From Bacteroidales bacterium (GTDB lineage Bacteria > Bacteroidota > Bacteroidia > Bacteroidales > Muribaculaceae), in NCBI GenBank assembly GCA_014800685.1, contig JAAVFQ010000017.1:1-39250 (forward strand): a stretch of 39,250 nt of DNA, given 5' to 3'. How positions within the stretch are numbered: the stretch's first letter is position 1; every line of letters starts with the position of its first letter. Position numbers and translations under genes: made by a program. The notes under the pieces were generated by a model. That model searched no databases, had not been told where the DNA came from, and saw nothing but the letters and a program-made list of their open reading frames with translations. Of the stretch, positions 2,562-27,927 are shown piece after piece.

Positions 2562-3866
2562 TCAGTCGATTTCCTCATCAGCTTCGTAACCACCCATTTC
2601 GCGGATAGCGTTCTTAAGCATTACATACTGCTGGAAGAGGTGATTAACGGGAATTTCGCCTTCAGTGTAGTCGTGCATCGGGCTCTTGAGGAAGAAGCTG
2701 AGGAACTTCTGAGTTCCATATCTTCCGGCGCGAGCAGCGAGGTCGCTGAGGAGCACGAGGTCGAGACAGAGGGGAGCAGCGAGGATAGAGTCGCGGCAGA
2801 GGAAGTTGATCTTGATCTGCATGGGATAGCCCATCCATCCGAAGATGTCGATATTATCCCAACCCTCCTTGTTGTCGTTGCGGGGGGGATAATAGTTGAT
2901 ACGCACCTTGTGGTAGTAGTCGTTGTAGAGATCGGGCTGCTCTTCGGGAACGAGAATAGACTCGAGAGTAGAGAGCTTGCTGACCTCTTTAGTGCGGAAG
3001 TTAGCGGGCTCATCGAGCACGAGGCCGTCACGGTTACCGAGGATGTTGGTAGAGAACCATCCTGAGAGGCCGAGGCAACGAGTGCCGATGATAGGCGCAA
3101 AACCAGACTTCACGAGAGTCTGCCCGGTCTTGAAGTCTTTACCGGCGATGGGCATCTTAGTTCTCTCAGCCACCTCCCACATAGCGGGGAAGTCGACGGT
3201 AGTATTGGGGGCACCCATGATGAAGGGGCAACCCTCAAGGAGAGCAGCATAGGCGTAGCACATAGAGGGAGCGATGTGCTCTTTATCGTCAGCCTTCATA
3301 GCGGCGACCATAGCCTCTTCAGTGCCGTGCACTTTCTCATCCACAGCCACATAGACCTCGGTAGAAGCAGCCCAGAGGACTACAACGCGCTCAACACCTG
3401 TCTCCTTCTTGAAATTGCGGATATCTTCACGGAGGCGTTCCACCATTTCCCAGCGGGTGATGTCGCCCATAGTGTTGTCGCCATCAAGACGCTTAGCGTA
3501 GTTCTTATCAAAAGCGGCCTTCATAGGCTTGATAGCTTTGAGCTCATCCTTGACGGGCTCAATATCCTTTTCCTTGAGCACTTCTGCATTAATAGCAGAC
3601 TCGTAGGCATTTTCGGGATAAACGTCCCAGGCACCGAATACGATATCATCAAGCGATGCGATGGGGACGATGTCTTTATAGTGAAGATATTTTTTGTTTT
3701 CGCCACGTCCTACGCGGATTTTGTCGAACTGAGTCATGGAGCCGACGGGCTTAGCGAGCCCCTTGCGAGCCATGAAGACACCAGTCATAAAAGTAGTGGT
3801 CACAGCACCGAGACCAACAACGAGGACGCCTAATTTACCATTGGCTTCTTTTGCTTTTTCTGCCAT
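2562..3866 (-). CDS. ino1: myo-inositol-1-phosphate synthase (inositol-3-phosphate synthase)
   Basis: 434 aa. It cyclises glucose-6-phosphate to inositol-3-phosphate in an NAD-dependent reaction in the cytoplasm, the committed step for inositol lipids. The N-terminal dinucleotide-binding stretch LGVLVVGLGAVTTTFMTGV (residues about 12-30), a GAWDVYPENAYESA segment and the SGFAPIIGTRCLGLSGWFSTNILGNRDG block match the MIPS family. An extended acidic tail ends the protein. Length fits the shorter prokaryotic/Bacteroides-type enzymes. It has its own promoter (4008-4039) yet follows the lipid-headgroup genes, and the same enzyme family heads the inositol-lipid cluster in Bacteroides thetaiotaomicron. 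The symbol is by family name. Confidence 0.93.
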   Translation of the reverse strand: MAEKAKEANGKLGVLVVGLGAVTTTFMTGVFMARKGLAKPVGSMTQFDKIRVGRGENKKYLHYKDIVPIASLDDIVFGAWDVYPENAYESAINAEVLKEKDIEPVKDELKAIKPMKAAFDKNYAKRLDGDNTMGDITRWEMVERLREDIRNFKKETGVERVVVLWAASTEVYVAVDEKVHGTEEAMVAAMKADDKEHIAPSMCYAYAALLEGCPFIMGAPNTTVDFPAMWEVAERTKMPIAGKDFKTGQTLVKSGFAPIIGTRCLGLSGWFSTNILGNRDGLVLDEPANFRTKEVSKLSTLESILVPEEQPDLYNDYYHKVRINYYPPRNDNKEGWDNIDIFGWMGYPMQIKINFLCRDSILAAPLCLDLVLLSDLAARAGRYGTQKFLSFFLKSPMHDYTEGEIPVNHLFQQYVMLKNAIREMGGYEADEEID

Positions 3867-4007
3867 TTTGAGTAATTATAAGTAAGTTGTGTTTTTTAAT
3901 AAACCGTGACTAAAGCCGGGAAAGTAAATTCCGGCAAAGAGTCAGAAAGAGAGCCCTCGAATCGGCAACCTATCCAAGATCGAAGAGGCTGCCAATCGAA
4001 AGTCGGG

Positions 4008-4039
4008 CAAAATTATATAGATTTCACGAACCGACCAAG
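4008..4039 (-). promoter_or_regulatory. Bacteroidetes-type promoter for the inositol-phosphate synthase gene
   Basis: On the minus strand the -7 box is TAATTTTG (4008-4015), matching TAnnTTTG exactly. A CTTG -33 box (4036-4039; consensus TTTG) lies 20 nt upstream. This predicts a 5' leader of about 130 nt before the start codon at 3866. The 3867-4258 gap contains this promoter, the hairpin at 4060-4089 and A/T-rich sequence; no gene seen. Confidence 0.65.
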
Positions 4040-4059
4040 AAAATTCCAATAAAAGTAAA

Positions 4060-4089
4060 GGTGTGAAATGTTAAATTTTATTTCACACC
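4060..4089 (-). terminator. Hairpin, probable terminator of the lipid operon
   Basis: Perfect 10-bp inverted repeat GGTGTGAAAT / ATTTCACACC with a 10-nt A/T loop, about 170 nt beyond the HAD gene stop. On the minus strand the stem is followed by TTTACTTTTA, a broken T-tract. It separates the HAD gene from the promoter of the next gene. Confidence 0.55.
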
Positions 4090-4258
4090 CTACTATTTAG
4101 TTAACAAATATTAAATTTTCAATATTTGATGAGATTTTAGTTAATAAACCTAAAGAGGGCTTCTGGGTTTTTATTTAGATAATATTTACATTTAAACCAA
4201 ATTAAACAATAAATCATTCTAAACATACTCTATACGCTCATTAACCTTACTTACTTTC

Positions 4259-5017
4259 TCACTTACTTATCAATTCAGATAGAGAATCGATCGTTGGGAC
4301 TCCGGCGGGGGGAGTGGATTCTTCGGCGGGATCCCAGGTCAACCCTTTAATCCACACGGCATGACACCCGATGGAAGTAGCAGGGAGAATATCCTTTTTT
4401 ATGCTGTCGCCAACTACGAGAACCTCCTTCGGATCCATGCCGAGAGCCTTCACTCCGAGACGGAAAATCTCAGGGTCAGGCTTTCTGACGCCAACCACAG
4501 CGCTTTCGATAATTTTTTTGAAGAACCGGTAGATCCCAAAGTCCTTGAGGACAGACTCGATATTGCCATAAAAGTTGCTGACGAGCACGAGAGGGAATTT
4601 CTCGGCAAGAGTCTTGAGAACGGGAATGGCATCTTTTACGTGTGCTTCAGCCGCCTTATAGCAAAGGTCGGCAGTCTCTTTAGCCTTTTCTTCCACGAGA
4701 GCGGGGGGGAAAAGTCCGTTTTCTGAGAGCCATTGGAGCTCCAGACGCATTTTAATGAGGAGCATATCGGCGAAGGTATGCTGTGGGAGGATATGGCGCA
4801 CTCTGGCGAGTTCGCGTTCTGCGAAGACATAAGCCTCGCGAAATTCGCCTTTTGAGACAGCAATATCAGCTTTCTGCCATGCATTCCAGATGACTTCACT
4901 CCAGTGATCACCGGCAGAATCGATAGTGCCGCCGTAGTCAAAAATTACACCTTTAATACCGGTAAAAATATCATTAATTTGAGAGTTCATCGCAAAGAGT
5001 TTTACAGATTTTTTCAT
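4259..5017 (-). CDS. HAD-superfamily hydrolase in the inositol-lipid locus
   Basis: 252 aa from the first ATG; an internal ATG at 4990 is an alternative. HAD motif I is FDYGGTID (residues 26-33): the nucleophile Asp27 is present, but the usual acid/base Asp two residues later is Gly29. Motif II Ser is in LVLVSNF, motif III Lys in GVRKPDPEIF, and motif IV is GDSIKKD, all intact. Its 5' end overlaps the end of the upstream CDP-alcohol phosphotransferase gene by 44 nt, so the two are almost certainly translated together. The substrate may be an inositol or lipid phosphate, judged from context only. The Gly substitution occurs in other DYGGT-type HAD proteins and does not by itself prove inactivity. 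Confidence 0.85.
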   Translation of the reverse strand: MKKSVKLFAMNSQINDIFTGIKGVIFDYGGTIDSAGDHWSEVIWNAWQKADIAVSKGEFREAYVFAERELARVRHILPQHTFADMLLIKMRLELQWLSENGLFPPALVEEKAKETADLCYKAAEAHVKDAIPVLKTLAEKFPLVLVSNFYGNIESVLKDFGIYRFFKKIIESAVVGVRKPDPEIFRLGVKALGMDPKEVLVVGDSIKKDILPATSIGCHAVWIKGLTWDPAEESTPPAGVPTIDSLSELISK

Positions 5018-5909
5018 GACGACATACCATATAAATAAGCAGGAAATTCAGCACCGTCAGCTCAAAAGCAAAGTAAAGCCATGGCATTCTGAAAATCAGA
5101 ATCGCGGCAAAGAGGGCGAAGGAGCGGGTGTTGAACGAGAGGATATTGGTATATTTCATCAGAGGGAGAGAGAGGGCACGAAATTTATCGCGGAACTGCT
5201 GCGGGATATGGTCACCATATTTCACTTGCAGACGTGCGCGGAGTTTTTGCATAGAGGGGGTGCGCCGTTCCTGACCTTTAGTATAGTTCATATAAAAGAA
5301 GAGCACGATTTTCTGCCAGAAATTGCCATTCCAGGAGAGAGTATCAAATTTTTCACGAAGGATAGAATAGCGGTCGAGTTCGCTCCCCTCTTCTCCTTTA
5401 AGGAAATAGAGATGAAACTGGCGATAATAATCTGCCATAGCAGCCTGCACACCATGACAAATGCCGGTCACGACAGCCATTACCCAAATCACCCACTTAT
5501 GAGCCATAAAGAAATCAGAGGTGACATTTTCTCTGAGACAGATAGCCACGTATATAGCTGCAAACCAGAGGTCGCCGCTGAGACCGTCAAGGATTCTGCC
5601 GAGTCGGGAATACTGTTTTGTCATTCGAGCGAGCTGACCATCTGCTGAGTCGAAAGAATCGGCCCAGACGAGGAGAAGGACGCCGAGCAGATTCCACCAG
5701 ATATTATTAAAATAGAAAGCCACGCCTGCGCCGATGCCAAGAAATATGGAGGCAATAGTGATTACATTGGGATGCACACCAAGTTTTTTAGCAAGGAGCG
5801 CCCATGCGTAACCAAGGGGGCGATAGAAAATAAGGTCGAAATGCTCCTCCGTGTCCATAGACTTGAGAGAGCTTTTATATTGAGAGATAAAGGATTTTTT
5901 GTCTGACAT
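4974..5909 (-). CDS. CDP-alcohol phosphotransferase, atypical (second copy)
   Basis: 311 aa integral membrane enzyme with several hydrophobic segments (about 50-70, 72-86, 115-127, 138-156, 268-300). The signature is D87-x2-D90-G91-x2-A94-R95-x8-G104-x3-D108, but the residue where the fourth catalytic Asp belongs (112) is Gly, with Asp at 113 (ILDGLSGD). The enzyme class transfers a phospho-alcohol from a CDP-linked donor. It is much longer than the canonical copy at 7913-8599 because of a cytosolic-looking insert (about 160-250). Overlap with the HAD gene and proximity to inositol-phosphate synthase suggest inositol-lipid formation. Exact donor and acceptor unknown. Its start region is duplicated (5902-5945). 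Confidence 0.85.
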   Translation of the reverse strand: MSDKKSFISQYKSSLKSMDTEEHFDLIFYRPLGYAWALLAKKLGVHPNVITIASIFLGIGAGVAFYFNNIWWNLLGVLLLVWADSFDSADGQLARMTKQYSRLGRILDGLSGDLWFAAIYVAICLRENVTSDFFMAHKWVIWVMAVVTGICHGVQAAMADYYRQFHLYFLKGEEGSELDRYSILREKFDTLSWNGNFWQKIVLFFYMNYTKGQERRTPSMQKLRARLQVKYGDHIPQQFRDKFRALSLPLMKYTNILSFNTRSFALFAAILIFRMPWLYFAFELTVLNFLLIYMVCRHEKICKTLCDELSN

Positions 5910-5945
5910 TAGAATTTTAATTATCTGACATAAGAATTTTAATTA
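5902..5945 (-). repeat. 22-bp tandem duplication covering a translation start
   Basis: Two adjacent 22-bp units, 5902-5923 and 5924-5945, differ at one base (T5910 vs A5932). Each carries the start codon and the A/T-rich leader of the downstream CDP-alcohol phosphotransferase gene. The upstream copy opens a four-codon frame ATG TCA GAT AAT TAA (5931-5917) that ends just before the true start at 5909. Confidence 0.85.
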
Positions 5946-5988
5946 TAAGCAAGCACGTTGTAAGACGCAAGCCACTCATCTTGCGAGA

Positions 5989-6876
5989 TCACTTTCCAAA
6001 TTCCTCCCTAAGGTGATATGTCTGCTCCCTGAGGAAAGCGCCGAGACCCGGTATATCGCCCTTATACTTGGCGATAGTCTCCGGAGAAATGGGCTGACCT
6101 ATAGAAATATGAACCTCCTTATTTCTCTTCCTGAACACTTCGGAGGGGAGGCGCAGAGACCTTGCCGGCCAGCAAGCATGACCAAGGAAATTAAAGAACC
6201 AGCTATTGGAGCCGTGGAAGAATATAGGGATAACGGGCACTTTGGCTCTGGCAATAATTTCACTGACCGAATCCTGCCAGGGGCGGTCTATGAGTTCTCC
6301 TTTGAGATTAGTTTTGCTCATGGCGCCGGCGGGAAAGAATCCTACAGGGTGACCATCCCGGAGTCTGCGGAAAACCTCCCGGATGCCGTTGATGCTCACA
6401 GAACGTTTTTTAGGGTCGATGCTCCAGGCATCTACAGAAATAAAATTCGGTCTCATGGCGCTGAGATGAGAGAGGAAATAGTTGACCATCACCTTATAGT
6501 CAGGGCGCAGCTGTGTGATAAGATAGATGAGCGTGATGCCATCAACGGCTCCGAATGGATGATTGCTGACGGTGATAAAGGGGCCCTGGCGGAAGCGTTC
6601 AAGTATGTCCTGATTATCCACGCGCATATCAAACTTAAAATCATCCTCCACGAGGTGCTTGACAAATTCAGCTCCGGGGGTCTGAGACCACCGGCCATGC
6701 ACCCTATTGACTTCATCCACTCTCAGCCAATGCAGAAGCGTGTTTACGAGCTTTTCATGGCCTTTAAGCTTAGGAGCCATGCGAGCCACGTCCTGATATG
6801 TCAGGACGTCGGGATGCACATCATATTTTTTTATTAACTCTTCATGAGTGAGGAGAGTATCGTCTCTATTGTCCAT
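5989..6876 (-). CDS. Lysophospholipid acyltransferase, hemolysin/OlsA-like clade
   Basis: 295 aa. The acyltransferase block I is NHPFGAVDG (residues 105-113), in which His106 and Asp112 are five residues apart. This NHPxGxxDG form is typical of the hemolysin-like / ornithine- and glycine-lipid acyltransferase clade rather than the HxxxxD of PlsC. A glycerolipid-binding FPAGAMS motif is at 181-187, and VPVIPIFFHGSNSWFFNFLG follows as block IV. Likely adds a fatty acyl chain to a lysolipid or amino-lipid on the cytoplasmic membrane face. It is 80 nt from the next gene and 92 nt from the previous one, all co-directional. Acceptor unknown. Confidence 0.88.
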   Translation of the reverse strand: MDNRDDTLLTHEELIKKYDVHPDVLTYQDVARMAPKLKGHEKLVNTLLHWLRVDEVNRVHGRWSQTPGAEFVKHLVEDDFKFDMRVDNQDILERFRQGPFITVSNHPFGAVDGITLIYLITQLRPDYKVMVNYFLSHLSAMRPNFISVDAWSIDPKKRSVSINGIREVFRRLRDGHPVGFFPAGAMSKTNLKGELIDRPWQDSVSEIIARAKVPVIPIFFHGSNSWFFNFLGHACWPARSLRLPSEVFRKRNKEVHISIGQPISPETIAKYKGDIPGLGAFLREQTYHLREEFGK

Positions 6877-6887
6877 TCGTAAGTTCT

Positions 6888-6977
6888 AAAAATTAAACGA
6901 AATGTATTAGCTGAATATTCTTATACTATAAAACTTGTCCTTTTGAGCCGATTCTCATTGTCGCTCAGTCAGGAGAT
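6888..6977. repeat. Dispersed intergenic repeat, copy 2
   Basis: Matches the segment at 1468-1559, including AAAAATTAAACGA, TATAAAACTTG, CCTTTTGAGC and CTCAGTCAG in the same order and spacing. It fills the gap between the acyltransferase start and the PAP2 gene end, and its last bases overlap the final codons of the PAP2 gene (stop at 6969-6971). It would therefore be in the middle of the operon transcript. Confidence 0.75.
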
Positions 6978-7916
6978 GTAGAGTGTGTATTTATAGATGA
7001 AACGGCTGAAAGCCGGAATTTTCATCAGTACATATTCAAAAATCAGGTATCCTGCGATAGCACAGAATATTCCGGCTGCCACGTCAATGATATAGTGATG
7101 AGAGGTATACACGGCTGTAAACCAGATGCCCGCTGTGACCACGCCGAGCAAAACACGCCACAGGAGGCTGCTTTTGAGTCTCATGGCATAGATGAAAGCC
7201 ACGAGGGTGTAGGCGGAATGCAGAGAGGGGAAAGCCGCGAAGACATTGGCATTGCGTTCATAGAGTCCATGGAAGATAGAGAGACCCGTCATAGCGTCGA
7301 AAGCTGCGAGACCGGCCATATTTCCGGGGGTGGAGGTGTCAGCTATAGCTCCATAAATGGCAATATACCAAGGGGGAGCAGCCGGATGGACGTAATAAAG
7401 AGCAAAACCGATGAGATTGACAAGTAGAAATACGAGCGCAAAATGCAGATAGCCCTCACGCCGTCCGCGTGCGTAAAGCCACAATCCATAAAAGACCGGA
7501 AGGGGCACCCAGCAGAGGTAGAAAATGCCTGCGAGAAAATCCATTGAGGCAGAGGTGTGGCGCGCAAAAAATTCGTTAGGCGTCAACATTCCATCAGGGG
7601 ATGAAATTCCAAACAGACCCTTTTCAGTCTCATAAATTCCAACCACGTCGATAGGATTTACTTCATAGTTCGGGAGGAGATTCATCCAGTCGTAAGAGAT
7701 GCCGAATGCTACGAAAGGGAGTAGCGCCACGATAAGTTTTCTGGAGGGGAGAGATGAGAAGAAAAGAGCGCATATCAGCAGAGCGAGGAGGAGATGCTCC
7801 GGGCGGAAACCGACGCAAAGCAGCGTGACGGCAAGCCAGACCGCCAGAGAGAGAATCATAATTACCGACTCGCTCAGAGAAGGGAGACTGAAAATGCGTT
7901 TATCTGCCATGGTCAT
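6969..7916 (-). CDS. PAP2/AUR1-like inositol phosphorylceramide synthase candidate
   Basis: 315 aa polytopic membrane protein. It shows YYVHPAAPPWY, then AFPSLHSAYTL, then YTSHHYIIDVAAG, the pattern of PAP2-fold AUR1-like enzymes with the SLH and HxxxD catalytic residues on the outer face. In the B. thetaiotaomicron inositol-lipid cluster an enzyme of this type moves phosphoinositol from phosphatidylinositol to dihydroceramide. I choose the ATG at 7916 because it overlaps the upstream stop codon as ATGA; an ATG at 7934 is also in frame. It follows the canonical CDP-alcohol phosphotransferase directly, as expected for the substrate-supplying step. A generic lipid phosphatase is the alternative. 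Confidence 0.8.
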   Translation of the reverse strand: MTMADKRIFSLPSLSESVIMILSLAVWLAVTLLCVGFRPEHLLLALLICALFFSSLPSRKLIVALLPFVAFGISYDWMNLLPNYEVNPIDVVGIYETEKGLFGISSPDGMLTPNEFFARHTSASMDFLAGIFYLCWVPLPVFYGLWLYARGRREGYLHFALVFLLVNLIGFALYYVHPAAPPWYIAIYGAIADTSTPGNMAGLAAFDAMTGLSIFHGLYERNANVFAAFPSLHSAYTLVAFIYAMRLKSSLLWRVLLGVVTAGIWFTAVYTSHHYIIDVAAGIFCAIAGYLIFEYVLMKIPAFSRFIYKYTLYIS

Positions 7917-8599
7917 TGAAGTTGCTTTCTGCAATGATTCATTCGTGCGAATGCAGTGACGTTAGAAAAGAGAGCGAGAATGCACATTGCAATAATGAGG
8001 ATAATGTCAGGCGAGAATCCATTGCCCTTATAGTTAGCGCACATCCCCGTAATGCCCGTAGCAAGAAGTGACAGGCAGGTGATGACGACCCTTTCGGGAC
8101 GCTGCATGAATCCGACCTTACATTCCAGTCCCAGCCCCTCGGCACGGGCGCGTGTATAGCTGACCATCAAGGAGCCTACAACGGCAAGAAAAGTGACAAG
8201 GGCGCCAAAAAGCGACCCGCTTTCTATGAGATAGTAAGAGATGCCGCCAAGACAGAAGAGCTCGCAATAACGGTCAAGAACAGAATCATAGAATGCCCCG
8301 AAGCGCGACACCATATTTCCGAGGCGTGCTACCTGTCCGTCGAGCATATCGAAGAGAGAGAAGATGATGATAACGGCTCCGCCGAGAGTGACGAGAGCAT
8401 AGTCATGGACTCCGGCCGTCATAACCTTATATCCCGCCATGACGAGGATGACGGCACCGGCTATCTGACCGAGCAAGCCGATGGTAGTCACCATATTGGG
8501 CGTAATGCCACATTTGATGAGCAGGCGGACGAAGGGATTTATCACAAAGTAAAGGCCCTTCTGAATGGCATCACGCATTTTACTAAAGAAATAACTCAT
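7913..8599 (-). CDS. CDP-alcohol phosphotransferase, candidate phosphatidylinositol-phosphate synthase
   Basis: 228 aa with about six membrane segments. The complete catalytic signature is present: D84-x2-D87-G88-x2-A91-R92-x8-G101-x3-D105-x3-D109. The family joins CDP-diacylglycerol to an alcohol; in the equivalent Bacteroides cluster the alcohol is inositol-3-phosphate, giving phosphatidylinositol phosphate. The N-terminus INPFVRLLIKCGITPNMVTT is the usual amphipathic entry helix followed by the first membrane segment. It overlaps the AUR1-like gene by 4 nt and is 29 nt after the GtrA-like gene. Inositol-phosphate as acceptor is inferred from the neighbours. Confidence 0.87.
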   Translation of the reverse strand: MSYFFSKMRDAIQKGLYFVINPFVRLLIKCGITPNMVTTIGLLGQIAGAVILVMAGYKVMTAGVHDYALVTLGGAVIIIFSLFDMLDGQVARLGNMVSRFGAFYDSVLDRYCELFCLGGISYYLIESGSLFGALVTFLAVVGSLMVSYTRARAEGLGLECKVGFMQRPERVVITCLSLLATGITGMCANYKGNGFSPDIILIIAMCILALFSNVTAFARMNHCRKQLQ

Positions 8600-8628
8600 T
8601 AGAATGACAAATGAAGATTAGCAATCAA

Positions 8629-9183
8629 TTATGAGCGCCGACAGCTCTTCCTGCGCGGCACAAGCCAATGGACCAGCCGGATAAAATATGGGTCGAACCG
8701 GTTAGGGCGGTAGACGAAATTGCGCTGCAGCACGAAATTCCATGCCCAGGAGACGATAAGAGCCACCAGAAGCGTAGCACCGGAGAAAATCAGCTTGTCG
8801 TCGAGGCCGAATTCACGGAGCCAATGCCAGTCAGAGAGAGCCAGAAAGGCGAATGTGGTGCCATACATATTAAGGAGCAGGCTGCCGGCCCAAACGAGAA
8901 TATACTTGACTGCGACGGCGGCGATATTCTGTCCGGAGGCGTGAAAGGTGAATTTGTAGTTGATGGCGCAATTAACGATTCCGCCGACTACAGCGCCAAT
9001 GGCCACCGAAAGGTTAGAGCGATAAAACTCGCTTAGACCAACGAAGACATACGAGTAGAACACGAATCGACAGCCAAGATCCATCCATCCGGCCGTCTGC
9101 GAGGAGACAGCCGAGCGGAGGAATTCATAAAACCATCCATCGCTGGTGAGTATCTTGTGGCCTAATTTTCTAACTTTACCCAT
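8629..9183 (-). CDS. GtrA-like membrane protein
   Basis: 184 aa with four predicted membrane helices (about 35-55, 61-79, 90-112, 127-148). The VGGIVNCAINYKFTF and SWAWNFVLQRNFVYRP segments are the two characteristic helix-end motifs of the GtrA/DPMS_TMD family. Family members accompany polyprenyl- or lipid-linked sugar transfer and are proposed lipid flippases. Here it sits between the PgpA-like phosphatase and the phosphatidylinositol-phosphate synthase candidate, so flipping or anchoring of inositol-lipid intermediates is a context-based guess. A basic Arg-rich tail ends the protein. Confidence 0.85.
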   Translation of the reverse strand: MGKVRKLGHKILTSDGWFYEFLRSAVSSQTAGWMDLGCRFVFYSYVFVGLSEFYRSNLSVAIGAVVGGIVNCAINYKFTFHASGQNIAAVAVKYILVWAGSLLLNMYGTTFAFLALSDWHWLREFGLDDKLIFSGATLLVALIVSWAWNFVLQRNFVYRPNRFDPYFIRLVHWLVPRRKSCRRS

Positions 9184-9238
9184 TGAGGTTTCAGTAAGTT
9201 CTAAGAATATAGACTAAGCGCGCAAAGCCCGCTTCATG

Positions 9239-9790
9239 TCAATAGAGAATATTAATGAGAAAAATCACGAATCCGGCGAGGATGCCGGCTGCGATGTCAT
9301 CAGCCATCATGCCTACTCCTCCCGGAAGCCTTTCGAGCTTGCGGATGCCTAAGGGCTTCCAGATGTCGAAGGCACGGAAGAGGATAAACGACAGAATCAC
9401 ACACCACCAGGGGGTGGCATTGACACCGGCCGAGAGAGGCACCACCGGAAGGAGGGCGATCCACTGCCCTACCGTCTCATCGGCGCATGCCACCACAGGG
9501 TCTTTGCCCCAGTATTTTTCCGAGAGGGTGCTTGCCCAGGTTCCCGCTATGCAGTAGAGAATTGTGGCCGTGAGCGTCAGCCAGAAGGCTACCCAGATGG
9601 ATGCATAGAGGTAAAGGGGAAGCCAGAGGAGCAGAGCCAGGAGAGCGCCCCATGTGCCGGGAGCCACCGGAAGAAAGCCAACGCCGAATGAGGTGGCGAT
9701 GAGCTTGGGGAGGAGAGGAAACTTCTCCCGGGTTACGGGGCAGGATTTTCCGGATTTCGACATAGCATTATTGAAAATGAAACGAAACAC
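9239..9790 (-). CDS. PgpA-family phosphatase, candidate phosphatidylinositol-phosphate phosphatase
   Basis: 183 aa. PgpA-family motifs are all visible: GFLPVAPGTWGALLAL, ACADETVGQW, FRAFDIWKP and GGVGMMADDIAAG, the acidic clusters being the metal-binding active site. Three to four membrane segments. In Escherichia coli PgpA dephosphorylates phosphatidylglycerophosphate; in the B. thetaiotaomicron inositol-lipid cluster the member removes phosphate from phosphatidylinositol phosphate. The neighbours favour the second role here. The start at 9790 is 16 nt after the ATP-grasp stop; an internal ATG at 9763 is possible. Confidence 0.88.
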   Translation of the reverse strand: MFRFIFNNAMSKSGKSCPVTREKFPLLPKLIATSFGVGFLPVAPGTWGALLALLLWLPLYLYASIWVAFWLTLTATILYCIAGTWASTLSEKYWGKDPVVACADETVGQWIALLPVVPLSAGVNATPWWCVILSFILFRAFDIWKPLGIRKLERLPGGVGMMADDIAAGILAGFVIFLINILY

Positions 9791-9806
9791 ACTGAAGGGA
9801 GCGGGG

Positions 9807-10673
9807 TCACTTCATGAAATTTTTGATTTTAGCCAGGATATAGGCTGAAATGGCCTGAGCAGCCTCCTTACGGCAGGGGGCGAAAGATGGCCAGTCGTTG
9901 AAGTCAATGATGCTGAAGCTGCCGTCGGCATCAATGATGCAGTCGCCGCCGTAGATATCCACGTCAAGCGCCTCGCAGGCCACTTCACACTGTGCCTGAA
10001 GGTCTTCCACGCTAAAGGCAATCTCCTCCGGCTCGCCATTGATTTTGTCGAGACCATATTTCTCTTTATGTCCGAAAAAGGGATAGAACCAGTAGAAGAA
10101 TTTCTCCCCTCTGACGCCATAAAACTTCACGAGGTCGCCTTTGAGATGACGGTTGATGACGGCGCGCTTTATGCCCCGATAGAAATATTCATGGAGCATA
10201 TCCTGCGCCTCTTCAGGATGGCGACAGAAGCTGACATCCTCGCGATGAAGAGAATGAGACTCTCCTCTCTTTACCCAGCACTCCACGATGCCGCGGCGTG
10301 CAAGCTCCGGGATCACATTCTCGTCGGTGCCGGCGATGACAGACTCCGGATAAGGCACAGAAGCGGCCATCAGCAGGCGCGTCATCAGCTCACGGGTGCA
10401 ATTAGTGATGCCGAATCCGGAATTGATGACAAGGCGTCCCTCCTTCTCGAGGGCACGGAGCTTCATCAGGGAGTCGCTCTCGCGGGCCATATTAATCACT
10501 ATAGGCTCCGGGATGTCCTGAGTCTGAAACTGAGACTCGCTGTAAACGGTGACATTGCATCCGCGCTTGCGCAGCTGCTCCATCACTTCATTGAAGATAG
10601 CGGCATCATTGCCGATATGGTTAGGCGAAAAGGCTCCGGCGCGCATCACGCCGGCCACTTTAATTTCTGACAT
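9807..10673 (-). CDS. ATP-grasp superfamily protein, first gene of the lipid operon
   Basis: 288 aa, no signal or membrane segment. The N-terminus resembles a pre-ATP-grasp domain; the central part has strands GIVECWVKRGE and KRAVINRHLKGDLVKFYGV; the C-terminus IDADGSFSIIDFNDWPSFAPCR carries the acidic Asp and Asn expected for Mg-ATP binding in ATP-grasp ligases. Such enzymes activate a carboxylate as acylphosphate and join it to an amine or thiol. It starts right after a good promoter (10746-10777), making it the leader gene of the operon. A role in decorating a lipid headgroup or making an amino-acyl intermediate is only suggested by location. Not assigned to a named family. Confidence 0.78.
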   Translation of the reverse strand: MSEIKVAGVMRAGAFSPNHIGNDAAIFNEVMEQLRKRGCNVTVYSESQFQTQDIPEPIVINMARESDSLMKLRALEKEGRLVINSGFGITNCTRELMTRLLMAASVPYPESVIAGTDENVIPELARRGIVECWVKRGESHSLHREDVSFCRHPEEAQDMLHEYFYRGIKRAVINRHLKGDLVKFYGVRGEKFFYWFYPFFGHKEKYGLDKINGEPEEIAFSVEDLQAQCEVACEALDVDIYGGDCIIDADGSFSIIDFNDWPSFAPCRKEAAQAISAYILAKIKNFMK

Positions 10674-10745: not shown

Positions 10746-10777
10746 CAAAATTAACAATTTCCCTGCAATGTCACAAA
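10746..10777 (-). promoter_or_regulatory. Promoter of the inositol/sphingolipid operon
   Basis: Minus-strand -7 box TAATTTTG (10746-10753) and -33 box TTTG (10774-10777), 20 nt apart: both match the Bacteroidetes consensus exactly. The predicted leader is about 65 nt. The -33 box lies inside the inverted repeat 10766-10788. Confidence 0.8.
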
Positions 10778-17708: not shown

Positions 17709-18773
17709 ATGACAGACACCCATAAGCCGGCAACAGATACTACATCCCGTAGAGCCTCAGTAAAATCCCGCATCGGAGGTATTGCACTGCGCTACCTGCT
17801 CCCACTGGGACTTACAGTGGCTCTCATCTGGTATCTCTTCAGAAAAGTTGACTTCGGCAGCATGATGGAGATAATACGCGATGGCGCCGACCTATGGTGG
17901 ATACTTCTCGCCATGGGCATAAGCGTCGTTTCTCACATCTTCCGCGCTGCACGCTGGCGTCTGCAGCTCTCAGCACTCGGGATTCGCCCGCCCTTCATGG
18001 CGTTATGCTGCTCTATTTTCGGCACATACGCTCTTAATCTCATATTCCCTCGCCTCGGCGAAGTGTGGAGATGCACATATATTTCACGCATAGGCCGAGC
18101 CCCGTTTACCACCGTTTTCGGATCTATGGTAGCCGACAGACTCGCCGACACCCTTACCGTGCTGATGCTCGTTCTGCTCACTTTTGTCGTAGCTTCGCCG
18201 GCCATCACTTCCTTTCTTGAGAAATATCCCGTGGGGCGCTCCCTGCTCGACATGGTCTACAACCCTCTTTTCTGGGTAGTGGCAGCCTTGGCCCTCGTCA
18301 TCATATTCGTCCTTATCAGAGCCTTTCGGCATACGGGCCCGATAAAAAAACTGACCCGATGGGTTTCCGAACTCTGGAAAGGATTTATCGTGGTGGCAAC
18401 GATGAAAGGGAGATGGATGTTTGCGCTGCTCACTCTTTGCATCTGGGGATGCTATTTCGTGCAGCTCTATGTAGCCTTCTTCGCCTTCTCATTTACAAGC
18501 CGCCTCGTCTTTGAGCCCGGCACAGCTTACGGGCTTATCCCCTGCCTTGTAGCATTCGTGCTCAGCTCTATAGGAATGGCAATTCCCTCAAATGGAGGCC
18601 TCGGCCCCTGGAACATTGCCATTATGTTCGGACTCGCTCTTTACGGCATCTCCGACACTCAGGGCACCGCTTTCTCCATGCTTCAATGGTCAGGACAGAC
18701 CGTTATGCTCGTCCTTCTCGGCATATACACCATGATTTATATATCTTTGCGCAGGAAGGATTCTTCCCGATGA
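17709..18773 (+). CDS. Lysylphosphatidylglycerol-synthase-TM / UPF0104 flippase-like protein
   Basis: 354 aa polytopic protein with about eight membrane helices. Family marks are SHIFRAARWRLQLSALG, FGTYALNLIFPRLGEVWRC (the conserved N-x-x-x-P-R-x-G-E) and GLIPCLVAFVLSSIGMAIPSNGGLGPWN. This is the AglD/MprF flippase-domain family without a synthase domain. Probable role: moving a lipid or glycolipid across the inner membrane. The promoter is a TACCTTTG -7 box at 17678-17685 with a poor -33. The stop overlaps the next start as ATGA. Confidence 0.88.
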   Translation: MTDTHKPATDTTSRRASVKSRIGGIALRYLLPLGLTVALIWYLFRKVDFGSMMEIIRDGADLWWILLAMGISVVSHIFRAARWRLQLSALGIRPPFMALCCSIFGTYALNLIFPRLGEVWRCTYISRIGRAPFTTVFGSMVADRLADTLTVLMLVLLTFVVASPAITSFLEKYPVGRSLLDMVYNPLFWVVAALALVIIFVLIRAFRHTGPIKKLTRWVSELWKGFIVVATMKGRWMFALLTLCIWGCYFVQLYVAFFAFSFTSRLVFEPGTAYGLIPCLVAFVLSSIGMAIPSNGGLGPWNIAIMFGLALYGISDTQGTAFSMLQWSGQTVMLVLLGIYTMIYISLRRKDSSR

Positions 18774-26230: not shown

Positions 26231-26965
26231 ATGCACTACGGAATAATAGCTGCGGGCGAGGGAAGCCGCCTGCGCCAGGAGGGAATAGAGCGTCCGAAGC
26301 CCCTTGTACTTCTCAACGGCGTCCCCATGATAGAACGCCTCATTCGCCAGATGATAGGCGCCGAGGCGGAATCGGTATCCGTCATAGTCAACGAACAGAT
26401 GACCGAGGTAGCCGACTTTCTTCGCTCACTGGCGCCTTCTCTTCCCGTGCCTCTCCAACTTGTAGTGAAGTCCACTCCCTCCTCCATGCACTCCTTCTAT
26501 GAGCTGAGCTCGCTGATGAAGGGGAAGGGACGCTTCATACTCACCACTGTAGACACGATTTTTCATTCGCAGCCTTTCGCCCGATATGCAAAAGCTTTTG
26601 CTGAGGGGCCGGAGGAGGTGGACTGCATGATGGGTATCACCGGATTTGTGGATGACGAGAAGCCTCTCTACGTGGCTACGCTCCCCCCTGACGTAAATCC
26701 GGGAGAAGAGAATCGCCTGTATCAGATAATAGGATTTTTTGATGACCCGACGCCCGGCGTGCGCTTCATCAGCGGAGGCATATATGGCCTTGACGGGAGC
26801 GCTATCTCGATTCTCGAGGAGTGCATGGAAAAAGGGGTTAGCCGCATGAGAAATTTCCAGAGAGCACTGACGGCCGGAGGTCTCAACGTGAAAGGCTACG
26901 ACCTCGGGAAGATAGTTGACGTAGACCACGCCGAAGACATCCGCACGGCAGAGCAATTCGTCTGA
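26231..26965 (+). CDS. Sugar/alcohol-phosphate nucleotidyltransferase
   Basis: 244 aa Rossmann-like NTP transferase. GIIAAGEGSRLRQEGIERPK (residues 4-23) is the G-x-G-x-R-x(n)-PK nucleotide-binding signature, TTVDTIFHS carries the metal-binding Asp region, and FISGGIYGLDGSAISIL and KIVDVDHAEDI follow. The family makes NDP-activated sugars, choline or inositol. The window also encodes inositol-phosphate synthase and an atypical CDP-alcohol phosphotransferase, so CDP-inositol formation is worth testing, but the enzyme could equally activate a sugar phosphate. Its stop is only 2 nt from the converging lipid kinase gene. Confidence 0.85.
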   Translation: MHYGIIAAGEGSRLRQEGIERPKPLVLLNGVPMIERLIRQMIGAEAESVSVIVNEQMTEVADFLRSLAPSLPVPLQLVVKSTPSSMHSFYELSSLMKGKGRFILTTVDTIFHSQPFARYAKAFAEGPEEVDCMMGITGFVDDEKPLYVATLPPDVNPGEENRLYQIIGFFDDPTPGVRFISGGIYGLDGSAISILEECMEKGVSRMRNFQRALTAGGLNVKGYDLGKIVDVDHAEDIRTAEQFV

Positions 26966-26967
26966 GC

Positions 26968-27927
26968 TCAGAACTGCTTGGAGAGAGCTGCCTGTATTTC
27001 CTGCAGAGTGCCGGTGATAGGCGTAAGTATAGGCTTAAATTCCGGCTCTCCCGCGCAATAGACGTTCAGGCTCTTGGGATGACATTCTATCTCTATTTTT
27101 TGCGGGAACATCACCGGCTCGCCGTCAAGATGCCCCTCCATCTGCTTTTCTGACTCAATGGTGAGCGTAGTGGCCCGGAGGGTCTCGAAGCGGCGATTAT
27201 TTTTTATAAATCCCGTGAAAAGCTCTATTGAATTTCTGGCTAAATCCAGGGGATTACCGGTATTGACTACGGTGATGTCGAGCAGGCCGTCGGTCAGCGA
27301 GGCGTGAGGGGCTATGTAGGCATTGTTGCCATACTGCGAAGAATTGCACACTGCAAGGATGAGAGCCTCGCGGCTGAAATTGCAGTCGGGGGTGCTGACT
27401 CTATATTTCTGCGGCTTATAAGACTTTGACTCGTGGATGATAACCCGGAGATAGGCGAATTTTCCTCTGCGCTTGCATTTCGAAAACGCATGGCTCACCC
27501 GAGCATCAAACCCTACGCCGAACGTGCAGAAAAAAGGCTTCCCATTGGCAGTGGCATAGTCGCAGGCTATGGAATGTCCATTCAGAGTCACCTTAAATGC
27601 CTCGACCGGATCGAGGGGGAGACCCAGGTGTCTTGCCAGTCCATTGCCGGAACCGGAGGGGATAATCCCCATTCTGACATCGCTGCCACACAGAGCCGAG
27701 GCCACTTCATTCACCGTACCATCCCCGCCGATAACAAGAATTGCATCCACGCTGCCGCTGGCCACAGCCTCTTCTGCAAACCGGCGGGCATCGCCCCCTC
27801 CACCCGTAAAGAGCAACTCATTTTTCATCTTGAGTTCATTGAAACATCTAACTACGAAGTCTCCAAGACGATTCTTGCTCGCCGTCCCGGAGATTGGGTT
27901 TGCTATGGTGAGAAATCTACGTTTCAT
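26968..27927 (-). CDS. YegS/diacylglycerol-kinase-family lipid kinase
   Basis: 319 aa. Signatures: IANPISGTASKNRL at the N-terminus, the nucleotide-binding VIGGDGTVNEVASAL (about residues 81-95), MGIIPSGSGNGLARHLGLP and a C-terminal EGHLDGEPV metal/ATP-contact block. This is the family containing diacylglycerol, ceramide and sphingosine kinases. In a sphingolipid-making Bacteroidales a sphingoid-base or diacylglycerol substrate are both plausible. It has a consensus -7 (TAATTTTG, 28023-28030 minus) with GTTG -33 at 28051-28054. Confidence 0.9.
   Translation of the reverse strand: MKRRFLTIANPISGTASKNRLGDFVVRCFNELKMKNELLFTGGGGDARRFAEEAVASGSVDAILVIGGDGTVNEVASALCGSDVRMGIIPSGSGNGLARHLGLPLDPVEAFKVTLNGHSIACDYATANGKPFFCTFGVGFDARVSHAFSKCKRRGKFAYLRVIIHESKSYKPQKYRVSTPDCNFSREALILAVCNSSQYGNNAYIAPHASLTDGLLDITVVNTGNPLDLARNSIELFTGFIKNNRRFETLRATTLTIESEKQMEGHLDGEPVMFPQKIEIECHPKSLNVYCAGEPEFKPILTPITGTLQEIQAALSKQF

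Follow-up and report, generated by a model that had tools for sequence, protein, structure and literature searches.

Gene content of the locus

The window analysed here is the whole contig JAAVFQ010000017.1 (G000:C17; 39,250 nucleotides) of a 2.13-Mb draft genome of a Muribaculaceae bacterium. It contains a presumed inositol-lipid locus, in which two described gene clusters for such lipids appear to be merged. Nine open reading frames (ORFs) were confirmed at the limits given in an initial annotation, all on the minus strand from 10673 down to 2562, in the order ATP-grasp gene (ATPG), PgpA-like, GtrA-like, first CDP-alcohol phosphotransferase (PT1), AUR1-like, acyltransferase (ACYL), second CDP-alcohol phosphotransferase (PT2), HAD hydrolase and myo-inositol-phosphate synthase (MIPS); the gene following MIPS is taken to be trmD. 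The names of eight of the nine ORFs were supported by Pfam/NCBIfam, with ATPG as the exception, and two of the three PF01066 matches in the genome belong to this locus. If each gene is counted from its earliest possible start codon, there are overlaps of 22 bp (PT1 with the AUR1-like gene) and of 44 bp (PT2 with HAD), the remaining intergenic gaps from ATPG through HAD amount to 16-92 bp, and 392 bp lie between HAD and MIPS. A tenth gene, coding for a nucleoside triphosphate (NTP) transferase on the plus strand, had been overlooked in the initial annotation. The genes are as follows:

9807..10673, minus: ATPG, ATP-grasp enzyme of 288 aa, a proposed inositol (phosphate) kinase
9239..9790, minus: PgpA-like phosphatase, BT1525-like, putatively converting phosphatidylinositol phosphate (PIP) to phosphatidylinositol (PI) (PF04608, 134.7 bits, cut-off 28)
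8629..9183, minus: GtrA-like membrane protein, BT1524-like (PF04138, 29.4 bits, cut-off 26.1)
7913..8599, minus: PT1, CDP-alcohol phosphotransferase, putative BT1523-like PIP synthase (NF052561, 264.1 bits, below the cut-off of 350)
6969..7934, minus: AUR1-like putative phosphoinositol dihydroceramide synthase, BT1522-like (NF052609, 470.1 bits, below the cut-off of 480)
5989..6876, minus: ACYL, putative lyso-lipid O-acyltransferase of the GlsA/OlsF N-terminal type (scores below NCBI cut-offs)
4974..5909, minus: PT2, second CDP-alcohol phosphotransferase (PF01066 and fold; canonical fourth Asp replaced by Gly)
4259..5017, minus: HAD-type hydrolase (Pfam; no transmembrane-like segment)
2562..3866, minus: MIPS, myo-inositol-phosphate synthase (PF07994, 336.9 bits)
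26231..26965, plus: NTP transferase of 244 aa, intact, predicted CTP:inositol-phosphate cytidylyltransferase

Relation to the two described clusters

The PgpA, GtrA, PT1 and AUR1 genes appear to match the BT1522-1525 set, which has been characterised in Bacteroides thetaiotaomicron. Together with MIPS they form the BT-like core that the initial annotation had rightly claimed. The MIPS, PgpA-like and GtrA-like proteins each score above the Pfam cut-off; the motif DX2DGX2AR-X8-GX3DX3D is intact in the PT1 sequence and the NF052609 match to the AUR1-like protein spans 305 of 305 positions, both at scores below the NCBIfam cut-offs. The locus shares MIPS, PgpA-like and GtrA-like genes as well as putative PIP synthase and AUR1-like synthase genes with the B. 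thetaiotaomicron cluster BT1522-BT1526 (PMC9246714, PMC8791184), but differs from it in being joined with PT2, HAD, ATP-grasp and acyltransferase genes and in that PT1 and AUR1 fall under the NCBI curated cut-offs. In some relatives ACYL adjoins MIPS or the BT-like block. In this first route, which has been characterised elsewhere, PT1 would convert inositol-3-phosphate and CDP-diacylglycerol into PIP, the PgpA-like phosphatase would convert PIP to PI, and the AUR1-like enzyme would use PI to form phosphoinositol dihydroceramide.

A putative alternative cluster has been described for B. vulgatus and Prevotella, consisting of genes for an NTP transferase, a CDP-alcohol transferase and a HAD hydrolase near MIPS; most species have one cluster or the other, and a gene for a lysylphosphatidylglycerol-synthase-type membrane protein (LPG) was noted near both (Heaver 2022, PMC9246714). 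The same genes occur in the window, where, unlike in that description, the two clusters occupy a single locus, with the NTP transferase gene 15.5 kb away. As the initial annotation had rightly noted, a HAD hydrolase gene accompanies a second CDP-alcohol transferase gene of atypical kind. The PT2 sequence matches PF01066 and the fold but departs from the canonical four-Asp motif D-x2-DG-x2-AR-x8-G-x3-D-x3-D. Among 116 PT2 sequences the fourth motif position holds Gly 111 times, Ser 4 times and Asp once, and the following residue is Asp in 95. The nearest solved structures are the archaeal AF2299 (4o6m) and IPCT-DIPPS (4mnd), and IPCT is also among the matches of the NTP transferase. In contrast to Archaeoglobus IPCT-DIPPS, NTP transferase and PT2 are separate proteins in the window; moreover, in contrast to both archaeal enzymes, the proposed PT2 acceptor is a lipid and the fourth motif Asp is replaced by Gly. 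In the HAD hydrolase, Gly takes the place of the +2 Asp of motif I in all 61 aligned sequences. MIPS gave a single match in the draft genome, and this one MIPS would serve both routes. Ten genomes were searched for this gene: it was found in six (G000, G011, G038, G047, G056, G059), each with a strong match to PT2 or AUR1. The other four, G002, G006, G007 and G048, gave no MIPS match and have no strong match to either; G048 contains a distant PT2-type match (33%, E 1.4e-27).

Two further PT2-like genes were seen in relatives. A distant paralogue with the canonical fourth Asp adjoins an ORF resembling a second NTP transferase (L043, 6379-8008); this pair shares its locus with the alternative cluster and perhaps serves a different CDP-headgroup lipid. 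The second PT2-like gene of G038 (L044, 6320-9912) is accompanied by an LPG-type protein and two tandem acyltransferases, and no NTP, ATPG, HAD or MIPS matches were found in that stretch.

The NTP transferase gene of the window stands after ppiC, rlmN and pdxA. In same-genus relatives without BT-like genes the usual order is ppiC-rlmN-pdxA-NTP-ATPG-PT2-HAD-MIPS-trmD, where we assume the names of the flanking genes (ppiC, rlmN, pdxA, trmD). Relative to the loci L048 and L064, the window carries the ATPG-trmD block in inverted orientation and has the metK-NTP block beyond the ftsL-corC genes; therefore, one break between NTP and ATPG is indicated, and the NTP transferase gene was probably separated from ATPG by a rearrangement, although the draft genome may be misassembled. 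Loss of the gene was rejected, because the search of relatives led to the intact copy in the window. A YegS-type diacylglycerol kinase gene (26968-27927, minus) abuts it end to end; in L048 the homologue adjoins metK at the opposite end of the NTP block. In another genome (G014; L220, 5101-8066) a diverged NTP transferase (35-36%) lies beside trmD and MIPS, away from the ATPG-PT2 locus.

With the NTP transferase gene in a non-adjacent position, the gene set of the alternative cluster is complete in the window. The same set was found in B. salyersiae (L136) and B. finegoldii (L140) in the order MIPS-NTP-ATPG-PT2-LPG-HAD. In 18 of the 80 named loci, which are the best 80 of 555 relatives and favour close kin, PT2 and HAD are separated by a PF03706 homologue of the LPG type; the window has an LPG-type protein (PF03706) at 17709-18773 (plus). 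The B. vulgatus tags BVU_RS13095, RS13105 and RS13115 are spaced like positions 2, 4 and 6 of the B. salyersiae/B. finegoldii row (first, third and fifth from NTP) and by position would fit NTP, PT2 and HAD of an NTP-ATPG-PT2-LPG-HAD row. The contig scan found no Phocaeicola record among the best 80 of 555 relatives, and no Phocaeicola name appeared among the best 120 proteins, most of them nameless, found with a Mediterranea PT2 query.

The initial annotation had proposed two routes to inositol lipids, and the gene content fits this view. Strong PT2 matches were found in 31 of 37 genomes of the genus sample and strong AUR1 matches in 9 (plus a fragment in a tenth), with both strong in 8; BT-like genes lie in the same fetched stretch as PT2 in 7 of 31 same-genus loci. 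The clusters are interleaved in the window, L040 and L074 and in tandem in L064, L066, L070 and L072; they are also interleaved in L215 from another genus of the family, whose stretch lacks HAD. Among 295 genomes of the order, PT2 was found in 44, AUR1 in 22 and both in 8, in one place in 2 of these 8. This is a modest excess over the 3.3 co-occurrences expected (Fisher p 0.008, with related genomes counted as independent). Trees of AUR1, PT2 and ATPG were weakly resolved and did not separate a single from a multiple origin of the interleaving.

The ATP-grasp gene and the proposed second route

Linkage of ATPG to PT2 is nearly complete. Of 31 PT2 loci from the same genus 30 include ATPG, and the remaining one is cut by a contig end; the gene is likewise present in 3 of 3 loci from other genera of the family and in 3 of 3 from further members of the order. 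Among the 80 named genomes the number is 76, with one exception at a contig end and three with room upstream. Moreover, NTP=ATPG fusions occur in six loci and PT2=HAD fusions in three; a fusion of the latter type has been reported in P. veroralis (PMC9246714), as another feature shared with the published cluster. Linkage and fusions led us to reject the view that the extra genes are random neighbours. The terms "ATP-grasp" and "Muribacul" are absent from the main text of PMC9246714, and among the open-licence papers listed by the searches none dealt with this ATP-grasp gene or with inositol-lipid genes of Muribaculaceae; one that came up, PMC12419801, is unrelated. The extended set that the initial annotation considered possibly undescribed has to be divided: PT2, HAD and MIPS correspond to the alternative cluster of Heaver 2022 (PMC9246714), and the ATP-grasp gene is, as far as our searches show, a near-constant and apparently undescribed component of it. 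With the same reservation, the merger of the clusters, the change in the PT2 motif and the pattern of divergence given below are also new.

ATPG gave no Pfam match and only weak RimK-type matches in NCBIfam (TIGR00768, 31.3 bits, below the cut-off of 143.4). When 88 ATPG members were scanned against Pfam, at most five matched any one family at E <= 1, RimK being among the families with five. The nearest named relatives are largely metagenome-assembled genomes of Muribaculaceae with mixed names. The predicted structure (pLDDT 91.4) shows an ATP-grasp fold along the entire length, and identities to the listed fold matches, which include RimK, LysX and ArgX ligases as well as ITPK and PPIP5K inositol phosphate kinases, amount to 11-18%. 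We prefer the reading that two routes share MIPS and that the second is a CDP-inositol route delivering phosphoinositol, with ATPG as inositol (phosphate) kinase, a model to which we assign about an even chance. Its weakest step is the kinase, because the fold comparison ranks the ligases RimK, LysX and ArgX ahead of kinases by about 1-2 Z; furthermore, one profile search was headed by PsnB. Both observations count against a kinase and speak for a ligase, which would attach an amino acid or a comparable group, the product of the cluster then being a further modified inositol lipid. We regard such a ligase as unlikely, since the TIGR00768 score is far below its cut-off, myo-inositol carries no amine, and in the profile alignment with RimK-type ligases the ATPG family has Lys opposite the RimK Arg and leaves the FRxN stretch unmatched, residues whose role in RimK we presume. 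In addition, ordinary phosphoinositol dihydroceramide is what has been reported for species credited with the alternative cluster (PMC9246714, PMC10056535), which leaves no reason to invoke the aminoacylation that the initial annotation, alongside acylation, had suggested.

In the preferred two-route model, ATPG would phosphorylate inositol or inositol phosphate ahead of the CTP step, the NTP transferase would make CDP-inositol, PT2 would transfer phosphoinositol from it to a lipid alcohol, most likely directly to dihydroceramide, and the HAD hydrolase, acting either ahead of PT2 or after it, would take off the surplus phosphate. The genes with their families and folds, the linkage, the fusions and the correlated divergence were observed; every reaction of this route, its acceptor lipid and the order of kinase and phosphatase are what we infer. 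Published lipid analyses bear on the acceptor. HPLC-MS of B. vulgatus and P. veroralis showed phosphoinositol dihydroceramide (PMC9246714), ceramide-PI made up 1% of the sphingolipids of B. vulgatus (Ryan et al. 2023, PMC10056535), and among four species tested diacyl PI was detected in B. thetaiotaomicron and B. ovatus only, not in B. vulgatus (PMC10056535). A ceramide-level product in the absence of detectable PI fits direct action of PT2 on dihydroceramide. However, caution is advised, because species without BT-like genes gave thin-layer chromatography (TLC) bands consistent with PI-diacylglycerol (PI-DAG) and a ceramide lipid (PMC9246714), and PI may be used rapidly or lie below detection limits.

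The published scheme (PMC9246714), repeated later (PMC10191378, PMC10056535) and restated in PMC10191378 as a CDP-inositol proposal lacking the ATP-grasp gene, assumes that PT2 makes PI from CDP-inositol and diacylglycerol and that HAD turns PI into phosphoinositol dihydroceramide, which would leave the ATP-grasp gene a bystander. The TLC bands are in line with it and the PT2=HAD fusions agree with coupled steps. Nevertheless, it appears very unlikely to us, because the HAD protein lacks a transmembrane-like segment and is related, among solved structures, to phosphatases, dehalogenases and hydrolases of the HAD superfamily, which makes a lipid-lipid transferase improbable, the ATP-grasp gene is near-constant, and diacyl PI was not detected in B. 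vulgatus (PMC10056535). For the putative B. vulgatus-/Prevotella-type route to inositol sphingolipids, the published scheme that we found makes a soluble HAD the ceramide-level synthase and omits an almost always present gene. Naming ATPG as a component and PT2 as the likely CDP-inositol enzyme makes the pathway testable by a few deletions and assays, and a genome with both routes permits the comparison of two product pools within one cell. A more far-reaching and rather doubtful proposal is a Kennedy-type Bacteroidales pathway (MIPS, ATP-grasp kinase, cytidylyltransferase, and PT2 as a CDP-inositol:ceramide phosphotransferase whose active site is modified) that leads directly to phosphoinositol ceramide, bypassing AUR1 and PI-diacylglycerol, and is merged here with the PIP route, the kinase being released or retargeted. 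If true, a complete Kennedy-type pathway exists in Bacteroidales, unrecognised because of its ATP-grasp gene.

Divergence of ATPG and promoter candidates

The identity of ATPG to two other-genus genomes was 60.4% (47-67, n=8) where BT-like genes are present and 72.0% (68-75, n=21) where they are absent, compared with 84.2 vs 85.2 for MIPS (one reference) and 54.1 vs 55.5 for pdxA. Within a same-genus panel the values were 61.8 vs 76.7 for ATPG, 88.1 vs 91.3 for MIPS and 56.5 vs 60.9 for pdxA, with no difference for trmD (82.0 vs 83.2); part of this ATPG gap is kinship, because MIPS and pdxA differ too. NTP, HAD and PT2 differ less than ATPG between the groups. L069 (G025) was grouped as BT-like-positive with AUR1 on another contig, and L073 and L075 were left out; the statistics of the comparison count related genomes as independent. 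ATPG is thus less conserved in genomes with the BT-like cluster, and the pattern suggests that the roles of the two clusters overlap and that ATPG has been relaxed or retargeted. A point against this comes from L073 (G012), which combines a diverged ATPG (48% identity to the panel) with the lack of an AUR1 match in the genome; counted as BT-like-negative, it would make the ATPG ranges overlap. ATPG residues that we take to be metal ligands are changed in L073, L074 and L215, and at another position in L216. In L216 ATPG is kept beside BT-like genes, while searches of that genome for PT2 (E <= 1e-40) and for NTP (E <= 1e-15) were negative, which favours retargeting of ATPG in at least this lineage.

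The divergence could also mean that the second route has been decaying, as a partly redundant relic, ever since the BT-like genes came in, and that only the first route matters. In this regard, the window ATPG shows 59.8% identity to the other-genus outgroup, below the 68-75% of BT-like-negative relatives, HAD is missing from the L215 stretch, NTP and HAD are missing from L073 and L074, and the changed putative metal ligands point the same way. We consider such decay in the window quite unlikely, since every ORF is intact, ATPG retains the conserved Lys, His and Asp/Asn residues, and the identities of PT2, NTP and HAD to the outgroup are within the BT-like-negative range; only ATPG and, slightly, MIPS fall outside it.

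Finally, two promoter candidates were found with a Bacteroidales consensus that we assume for both:

10746..10777, minus: candidate Bacteroidales-type promoter 5' of ATPG (8 motif matches in the window vs 0.2 expected)
4008..4038, minus: candidate relaxed Bacteroidales-type promoter 5' of MIPS (12 in the window vs 0.87 expected)

The relaxed form was first spotted by eye at MIPS and then counted. Because of this candidate upstream of the gene, MIPS may be transcribed separately.

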